Source: Fidelibacterota bacterium (lineage in GTDB: Bacteria > Fidelibacterota > SORT01). Taken from it: a stretch of 37,131 nt of DNA. The notes below the pieces were generated by a model. That model worked only from the letters and a program-made list of their open reading frames with translations. It did not search any database and was not told the origin of the DNA. Location: positions 1 through 37,131 of the forward strand of contig JACZYG010000018.1 in assembly GCA_022571215.1 (NCBI GenBank), read 5' to 3'. Position numbers and translations under genes: made by a program. Shown one piece after another: positions 13,175 through 17,844 of this stretch. The first letter of the stretch is position 1. Every line of letters starts with the position of its first letter.

Positions 13175-13207
13175 ATTAATTAGATCGGCGAGAATCGCCT
13201 AATTAAT
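13175..13207. terminator. Hairpin between the convergent M20 peptidase and SelW genes
   Basis: Two-tier inverted repeat: outer arms ATTAATTA/TAATTAAT and inner arms GGCGA/TCGCC with a three-base loop. It overlaps the stop codon of the minus-strand selenoprotein gene and lies 25 bp after the peptidase stop. It probably ends transcription from either side, although neither flank has a long T run. Confidence 0.45.
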
Positions 13208-13427
13208 TCAGTGAGTTGATGCTTTCGATGATTTCGCTATTTTCGGGGAATCTGCCTATCTCTTTTTTTGAAAATATATTTTTTTCATTCACAACTACCT
13301 CGAATACGCCGTGACTTGAAGGGATAAGTTCGCTCTCCACATCAAAGCTTTCTCTTAATTCAGCCGCCAAACTGGTGGCTTGCGGGAGGTACCCTCAAAC
13401 GCTGCAATATTCAATGCTGATGTTCAT
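13203..13427 (-). CDS. SelW/Rdx-family selenoprotein with TGA-encoded selenocysteine
   Basis: A 74-residue thioredoxin-like protein of the Rdx family (SelW/SelT/SelH), visible only if the in-frame TGA at 13395-13397 is read as selenocysteine. The start reads 'MNISIEYCSV', then TGA, then 'GYLPQATSLAAEL', giving C-x-x-U exactly at the redox motif, which is CxxU or CxxC in this family. The rest matches the family: 'ELIPSSHGVFEVVVNEK', 'IFSKKEIGRFPE' and an aliphatic C-terminal helix, ending at TAA. The codons around TGA keep a single open frame, which argues against random decay. A hairpin of bacterial SECIS type follows the TGA. A GAGAG-type ribosome site precedes the ATG. No selA, selB or selC gene is in the window, so decoding capacity is unproven. 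Likely a thiol redox protein. Confidence 0.85.
13363..13379 (-). promoter_or_regulatory. Candidate bacterial SECIS hairpin
   Basis: In the selW transcript, 15 bases after the UGA, GCCACCA pairs with UGGCGGC (one A-C mismatch) around a GUU loop. The loop begins about 23 nt after the UGA and its first base is G; both agree with the known layout of bacterial SECIS elements, which lie inside the coding region just past the UGA and need a G early in the apical loop. The stem is short and was found by eye. Confidence 0.55.
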
Positions 13428-13503
13428 ACTAACTCTCTTTCTAAAGTTTGTCCGGCGGTTAAATTTACTATAATATTTTTTTAAATCAAACAAAACAGAA
13501 TGG

Positions 13504-13899
13504 TTATGCACCATTCGGAAATTCTTCATTGACCATTTTATTAATAAAATCTTTTGCCCTCTGAAGAAAAAGAGTTGGGCCGGATTCAGACGGGATAAGT
13601 CCTCTTACCCGAATGTAATCGTATTCAATCATAAAGAATAAAGCAGTATTTAGAGTTATGCCGGACTGCATAGCGAGCGGTTCTAAAAAAGTTTTCATTG
13701 ATTCACTGTTGCCACTCTTGATTTTTAACCTTATTAGACGACTGGTAAGATTATTTTCATTGGCATCCGGTAATTGGCTTTTCAATTGCTTATAAAGTTG
13801 AATTTGGTTTCGCACATCATTTTTCCAGCCTGACCAACGATTCAAAAATAAAACTAACACAGCGAATAATAAAGCAGCAAATATGTATAAAATTGTCAT
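13504..13899 (-). CDS. Small membrane-anchored protein of unknown function
   Basis: A 131-residue protein I cannot assign. Residues 3-20 form one membrane helix ('LYIFAALLFAVLVLFL') followed by a basic, helical cytoplasmic part with 'RNQIQLYKQLKSQLPD', and a C-terminal part ending 'FINKMVNEEFPNGA'. There is no signal cleavage site and no catalytic motif. The ribosome site is poor. It lies 76 bp upstream of the selenoprotein gene on the same strand, so the two may be cotranscribed; a functional link is not shown. Confidence 0.55.
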   Translation of the reverse strand: MTILYIFAALLFAVLVLFLNRWSGWKNDVRNQIQLYKQLKSQLPDANENNLTSRLIRLKIKSGNSESMKTFLEPLAMQSGITLNTALFFMIEYDYIRVRGLIPSESGPTLFLQRAKDFINKMVNEEFPNGA

Positions 13900-16068: not shown

Positions 16069-17844
16069 ATGGATAATATTTTATTATTGGGAATTCTTTT
16101 AGGAACTCTCATACTGTTCATTTCGGATCGCTTATCGGCTGATCTGGTTGCGCTTTTAGCGCTTGTGACCTTGCTGCTGTTCAAATTTATTACTCCGGAA
16201 GAAGCCGTATCGGGGTTTTCAAACAGTGCGACGATCACTATCGGCGCCATGTTCATCCTTAGCGCCGGTTTGATTCATACCGGTTTGGTAGATCAATTGG
16301 CAGTGCTTGCCGCTAATCAGATTAAAAACGCACAATACGGTTTGATGCTATTCATAATTTTAATCGCGGGAGGAGTATCGGCTTTTATAAATAACACGGC
16401 TGTTGTAGCTGTATTCTTACCGGTTATTATTAAGATATCAAGAGAGCGGGGACTTAGCCCGTCAAAATTCCTGATACCGCTTTCATTCGCTGCAATTCTC
16501 GGCGGAAGTATGACGCTCATCGGGTCGTCAACTAATATTCTTGTCAGCTCGATTGCCAAAGAACATGGACTTGCGGAATTCAAACTATTTGAATTCTCGC
16601 CGGTGGGTTTAGCGCTTTTTGCGGCAGGAGGAATTTTTCTGTGGCTGTTTGCTTATCGCTTGCTTCCGAGTAGAGCAAGTACCGGAGATTTGACTAAAAG
16701 TTACAAAATGAAGAGGTATCTGACGGAGATAACAGTCATCGAAACCTCTTCGTTGATTGGAAAAACCCTTTTGGAAAAAAAGATAGCCGAGACCTATGAT
16801 GTGAACATACTTGAGATCATCAGGGGAGAAGAGAAAATATGGCGTAAATTGCGGTCAACAGCGATCGAAAAAGACGACCTGTTGTTGGTAAGAGGAAGCG
16901 TACAAAATATTATAAAGTTCACTACCGGTGAAAATCTTCAAAGTCTGAGCGAAACGGTGTTAGGTGATGAGGATCTTCAAGCGGATGATGTAGTTCTTGC
17001 GGAGGCTGTAATCGCGCCGAATTCAACCCTGATAGGTTACACGGTGAAAGAGATAAATTTTAGGCAGCGATTCAGCGCATTTGTTCTTGCCGTACAAAGT
17101 CACGGGACAACATTCCGGGACAAAATCGGGCGAATCCCACTGCACTTCGGTGATTCCCTACTTTTACAGGGGAGTACCAAGGCGATTCAAAATCTTCAGA
17201 ATAATCAGGATTTTTTGATGATGGAGGAGGTAAAACTTGAAAAATTTCGCACCGACAAAGCGGTAATAGCTCTTGGCATAATTGCCATGGTTGTCTTAAC
17301 TTCTGCTTTTGAACTATTCCCGATTATGGTTGCGGCCATTTTCGGAGCCGTATTAATGGTTATTACAGGTTGTATTAATATCAAAGAGGCATATGCTAAC
17401 ATCGATTGGATGGTTATTTTTCTCATTGCAGGGATGATCCCAATGGGTATAGCTCTTCAAAAATCAGGACTCGTAACAAGCGCGGCTGATGGTCTTTTGA
17501 CTCTTTTTGGGGAGCTGTCTCCTCTTTTAATACTCTCTCTGCTTTATTTAGGCACCGTTCTACTTACGTCCGTTCTATCAAATACAGCAACAGCGATTGT
17601 AGTAGCGCCGATCGGAATTTCTATGGCAATTTCTCTCGGAGTTAACCCAAAACCATTTTTGATGGCGATTATGTTCGGAGCCTCTACCAGTCTGATCACT
17701 CCGATAGGATATCAAACGAACACCTTAGTTTATAGTCCCGGAAGATATAAATTTAAGGATTATCTCAAGGTGGGATTACCTATAAACCTTATTGCGTGGC
17801 TGATAATTACGCTTTTAGTTCCTGTGATCTGGCCATTTAATTGA
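16069..17844 (+). CDS. SLC13-type permease with two TrkA-C (RCK_C) domains
   Basis: Inner-membrane anion transporter, 591 residues. The two membrane halves (about 1-200 and 395-591) carry internal repeat motifs 'NNTAVVAVFLPVI'/'SNTATAIVVAPIG' and 'LIGSSTNILV'/'PIGYQTNTLV', the paired hairpins typical of DASS/SLC13 carriers. Between them lie two cytoplasmic TrkA-C domains (about 208-285 and 305-385), which in related proteins bind ligands and gate transport. Likely substrates in this family are sulfate, dicarboxylates or similar anions; the sequence does not decide. The ribosome site is weak. It is the first gene of a three-gene operon; the next starts four bases after its stop. Confidence 0.87.
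   Translation: MDNILLLGILLGTLILFISDRLSADLVALLALVTLLLFKFITPEEAVSGFSNSATITIGAMFILSAGLIHTGLVDQLAVLAANQIKNAQYGLMLFIILIAGGVSAFINNTAVVAVFLPVIIKISRERGLSPSKFLIPLSFAAILGGSMTLIGSSTNILVSSIAKEHGLAEFKLFEFSPVGLALFAAGGIFLWLFAYRLLPSRASTGDLTKSYKMKRYLTEITVIETSSLIGKTLLEKKIAETYDVNILEIIRGEEKIWRKLRSTAIEKDDLLLVRGSVQNIIKFTTGENLQSLSETVLGDEDLQADDVVLAEAVIAPNSTLIGYTVKEINFRQRFSAFVLAVQSHGTTFRDKIGRIPLHFGDSLLLQGSTKAIQNLQNNQDFLMMEEVKLEKFRTDKAVIALGIIAMVVLTSAFELFPIMVAAIFGAVLMVITGCINIKEAYANIDWMVIFLIAGMIPMGIALQKSGLVTSAADGLLTLFGELSPLLILSLLYLGTVLLTSVLSNTATAIVVAPIGISMAISLGVNPKPFLMAIMFGASTSLITPIGYQTNTLVYSPGRYKFKDYLKVGLPINLIAWLIITLLVPVIWPFN

Follow-up and report, generated by a model that had tools for sequence, protein, structure and literature searches.

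Does a stop codon inside an otherwise open frame mark a broken gene, or is it read through as selenocysteine (Sec)? The locus in question lies in a 37,131-nucleotide stretch of DNA from an uncultured, marine-type Fidelibacterota bacterium (contig JACZYG010000018.1), hereafter the window. The minus-strand translation of positions 13203 to 13427 reads MNISIEYCSV, then a stop that is the TGA of codon 11, then GYLPQATSLAAELRESFDVESELIPSSHGVFEVVVNEKNIFSKKEIGRFPENSEIIESINSLN and the terminal stop. We analyzed the frame, its family, the RNA behind the TGA, the decoding machinery of the host genome, and relatives in public genomes and across the phylum.

The interrupted frame encodes an Rdx-family protein

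The frame was absent from the table 11 ORF calls of the window. Its product matched the Pfam family PF10262 (Rdx) with an E value of 1.5e-20 (73.6 bits; cut-off, 22.6) over profile positions 1 to 73 of 74, on both sides of the TGA. It also scored above the cut-offs of NCBIfam NF041051 (5.1e-28; 97.1 bits against 88) and TIGR02174 (6.9e-18; 64.7 bits against 34.2). Since the Rdx and NCBIfam profile matches extend across the TGA, the frame is far from a chance occurrence. Rdx proteins carry CxxC or CxxU after the first strand, and the motif near the N terminus of this protein is C8-S-V-U11. These matches bear out the first-pass annotation, which had proposed a SelW/Rdx gene with CxxU through an in-frame TGA. 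An upstream ATG at 13529, giving a 108-amino-acid frame, was considered as the start and discarded because homologues begin at MNISIEYC. Coordinates of the features are collected in Table 1.

Table 1. Features of the selW-like locus in the window and Sec-decoding genes elsewhere in the host genome (C, contig; L, locus)
Feature	Position	Strand	Evidence and remarks
selW-like gene, 74-amino-acid Rdx-family selenoprotein	13203..13427	(-)	Start ATG 13427..13425, stop TAA 13205..13203; translation, PF10262, NF041051, TIGR02174
In-frame TGA, predicted Sec codon, residue 11 of C8-S-V-U11	13395..13397	(-)	Sequence; same-column TGA in relatives
Bacterial SECIS-like hairpin, AGCC-A-CCA-GUU-UGG-C-GGCU	13362..13380	(-)	Starts 14 nt after UGA, apical loop GUU starts 22 nt after UGA; fold and alignment
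Possible ribosome-binding site, purine-rich AGAAAGAGAG	13433..13442	(-)	5' of ATG; sequence, by inference only
Hairpin between converging selW-like and M20 peptidase genes, possible terminator	13175..13207	(-)	Fold -9.6 kcal/mol, z -1.8; no clear T-run
selB	C33:97320-99179	Same as selA	Profile match, 338.1 bits
selA	C33:99209-100570	Same as selB	Profile match, 565.7 bits
tRNA-Sec	C19:1521-1611		66.3 bits; anticodon TCA (UCA) by ARAGORN
selD	C12:64146-65069 (L018:1390-2457)	(-) in L018	353 bits; own in-frame TGA in SSGGUACKLSP

We are nearly certain that the gene is complete and functional, with UGA 11 read as Sec via SelB and the hairpin and UGA serving as a stop elsewhere. Sequence evidence establishes the family, the conservation of the TGA, the presence of the genes for Sec decoding, and the conservation of an RNA hairpin; from these we infer both Sec insertion at residue 11 and the redox chemistry of the protein. 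Sec-tRNA(UCA), carried by SelB, would decode UGA codon 11 as Sec, and the mRNA hairpin 3' of the UGA would recruit SelB. Binding of an mRNA hairpin by SelB-GTP and Sec-tRNA is established for bacterial Sec decoding; here, the bound complex would deliver Sec at UGA 11. We expect a small protein of the thioredoxin fold whose Cys8/Sec11 redox pair probably cycles between the selenolate/thiol and selenenylsulfide forms. By analogy with its family, the protein is probably a thiol- or peroxide-linked oxidoreductase.

A hairpin behind the UGA is conserved beyond coding

Bacterial SECIS elements lie just 3' of the UGA and carry a G in the loop. We aligned the 48 nt after the TGA from 68 distinct sequences, with positions counted from the T of TGA, and compared them with synonymous redraws that used the codon usage of each locus. 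This stretch folds better than its redraws (negative z in 61 of 68 sequences; Wilcoxon, 2.6e-11). The shared hairpin pairs nt 18 to 25 with 29 to 36, and 83.5% of the hairpin cells are paired, versus 58.2% (standard deviation, 1.5%) in 500 synonymous redraws, a z of about 17. Pairing falls to 17 to 47% when the hairpin is slid by 1 to 3 nt. Compensatory changes are found at pair 21-33 (CG, GC, TA, and AT) and pair 22-32 (GC, TA, and CG). The apical loop starts with G in all 68 rows, followed by U in 62 of them. This GU, together with the closing A, comes from a Ser codon, which is AGT in 51/52 rows, against a usage of 11%.

Thus, the conservation of the hairpin exceeds what coding needs and fits a bacterial SECIS element. 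The stem does overlap a conserved peptide, ATSLAAE, and its conservation could merely mirror that of the amino acids, with no SECIS element present; given the excess of pairing over synonymous redraws, the near-invariant AGT, and the Watson-Crick swaps at two pairs, we regard this as highly improbable. The case for the hairpin rests on the alignment, since the fold of the window sequence by itself is unexceptional (z of -0.57 to -0.6). An Rfam scan of the locus with E values up to 5 matched no family. RF00031 (SECIS_1) matched neither the host genome nor any of the controls, which makes this search uninformative. The second hairpin in Table 1, downstream of the gene, was not picked up by a terminator scan.

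The host genome encodes the Sec-decoding machinery

The host genome (2.56 Mb in 71 contigs, 96.7% complete) contains selA, selB, tRNA-Sec(UCA), and selD. selA and selB are adjacent on one contig, and the tRNA-Sec is the sole match above the gathering score. The finding confirms that this lineage decodes Sec, as had been implied from the window, and together with the conservation of the TGA column it supports the earlier proposal that the TGA encodes Sec. selD has its in-frame TGA at the known Sec/Cys position of SelD, and therefore making the selenophosphate synthetase would depend on the product of that same enzyme. Such a requirement is known in other bacteria.

TGA also terminates ordinary genes of the window, such as that at 16069-17844; UGA is thus not generally reassigned. 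An open frame by itself does not identify the residue inserted, and yet the full machinery including tRNA-Sec(UCA), the TGA ends of other window genes, the SECIS-like hairpin behind the UGA, and the place of the CxxU column in a family known for Sec make it exceedingly unlikely that this UGA is read as Trp, Cys, or some other residue through a changed code or near-cognate readthrough.

The TGA column is conserved in relatives

We sought relatives in public contigs, one genome per species, with peptide patterns that left out the U position, and therefore the search did not select for TGA. It found 46 related loci, 45 of them readable and the 46th masked at the TGA column. All 45 readable relatives have TGA at the same column, preceded by a Cys codon that is either TGC or TGT. 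They come from genomes labeled Planctomycetota, Deltaproteobacteria, Gemmatimonadaceae, Calditrichaeota, and Marinimicrobia, among others. Within the phylum, C-x-x-TGA was present in 30/30 loci inspected. Both sets thus hold TGA, rather than other stop codons, at the exact column. Neither of the two observations named as speaking against the first-pass annotation, a genome without Sec machinery or unrelated stop codons in relatives, was made.

The nearest relative, in Candidatus Marinimicrobia MT.SAG.3 (84% identity), keeps the TGA; on this basis, the host genome probably belongs to Neomarinimicrobiota. Synonymous differences account for 14 of the 25 differing codons 3' of the TGA, and the changes at codon positions 1, 2, and 3 number 7, 4, and 19, as expected of translated sequence. 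The stop codon in the frame could suggest that a nonsense mutation turned a Cys-type Rdx gene into a pseudogene, but because the stop is conserved column-wise (the same stop at the same column of 75 loci inspected, from many phyla) this reading is in effect refuted, and the synonymous bias downstream of the TGA and the selection on the hairpin also leave it virtually no chance.

Gene order around the selW-like gene is shared with the same relative: an M20 peptidase gene converges downstream, and a gene for a small uncharacterized protein lies upstream, followed by a GAF-HD protein gene. The upstream neighbor in the window (13504-13899, minus strand) encodes 131 amino acids (136 in the relative) with one N-terminal hydrophobic stretch; a Pfam scan of the 131-amino-acid protein gave no match.

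Distribution of the Sec form across the phylum

Of the 245 phylum genomes searched, 144 matched PF10262. Among the matches listed, each one that starts at profile position 1 to 3, and so covers the CxxU, holds exactly one TGA. Six listed matches have no TGA; these begin no earlier than profile position 16, and therefore the motif is missing from them. No Cys form of the SelW-like protein was seen among the matches listed from the 245 genomes.

selA scored above the cut-off in 175/245 genomes. Rdx and selA occurred together in 125 genomes, Rdx only in 19, selA only in 50, and neither in 51 (Fisher P of 2e-10, uncorrected for shared descent). No Rdx match was found in groups f4 and f13, which lack selA. 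The 19 Rdx genomes without an above-cut-off selA were checked for selB as possible real exceptions: 3 have a full selB, the others are for the most part incomplete drafts, and in some of those others selB is present only as fragments at the ends of contigs. The absence of selA from Rdx-bearing genomes is probably due to assembly gaps.

The SelW-like protein may be obligately Sec-containing in this phylum (more than 140 genomes), with Cys perhaps unable to replace Sec and gene loss the sole alternative, a tentative idea that we consider somewhat doubtful. If true, the phylum would offer a natural setting in which to study why SelW cannot do without Sec.

Relation to known SelW-like selenoproteins

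Bacterial SelW-like selenoproteins were described by 2006, with the observation that organisms using Sec have few or no Cys homologues (PMC1794560, Zhang et al. 2006). The family was the most abundant selenoprotein family in Global Ocean Sampling data, with 427 Sec and 56 Cys forms (PMC2398784, 2008), and a later survey put its share of marine selenoprotein genes at 11.3% (PMC9402790). In epsilonproteobacteria, SelW genes were wholly missed by annotation, and SECIS elements were described behind the TGA (PMC4607533). Because SelW-like proteins are already the top marine selenoprotein family, the gene is an expected member of a known family. It had been called hidden, and plain table 11 calling indeed does not list it; the family, however, has long been known, as has the fact that its genes often go unannotated (PMC1794560, PMC2398784, PMC4607533).

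The protein shares with known bacterial SelW-like selenoproteins the CxxU, the single short domain, and the dominance of the Sec form, and differs only in host lineage. Its score exceeds the cut-off of NF041051 (SelTWH_Campy), a model named for Campylobacter-type bacteria; the phylum here is a different one. Solved Rdx proteins (2ljk, C17orf37; 2fa8, Atu0228; 3dex; and 2npb, mouse SelW) are similar over most of the chain, and the two that were aligned, 2ljk and 2fa8, have Cys where the window protein has Sec. Among the papers searched, none dealt specifically with selenoproteins of this phylum.

Other selenoprotein genes in the host genome

Probing the selenoproteome of the host genome by families revealed at least two further genes in which an in-frame TGA places Sec within a redox motif. 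At least four genes of this genome would be missed or truncated by plain gene calling. A search for GRDB/PrdB gave no match in the host genome or in any control genome and, with the controls also empty, was uninformative.

One of the two encodes an AhpD/peroxidase-related protein (L098:272-790; C26, 85071-85589, plus strand) in which an in-frame TGA gives CxxU (NECHYUTLHHG); its TIGR01926 match is 3.4e-38. This is a known kind of selenoprotein.

The other (L102:1090-3141; C31, 26689-28740, plus strand) encodes roughly 684 amino acids with LVIVD repeats, an ASH/HYDIN-like domain, a ResA/AhpC-TSA-like domain with FFASWUPVCGPE, and a C-terminal type IX secretion system (T9SS) type A sorting domain. 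The U of its UxxC motif (WUPVC), in the thioredoxin-like domain, is an in-frame TGA. WUPVC with TGA is kept in 11 relatives (L104 to L114), down to about 40% identity, and further table matches likewise have one TGA. Behind the TGA, a TCCGGAGTTTTCGGA-type stretch able to form a hairpin is kept across phylum relatives. These features suggest an exported or surface-bound selenoprotein. A literature search combining selenoproteins and type IX secretion found nothing relevant; this T9SS-tailed selenoprotein is possibly new to the literature, and it is more unusual than the selW-like gene. At least 18 T9SS-type sorting tails occur in the host genome, on many contigs, one of them near selA (C33:101397-101684).
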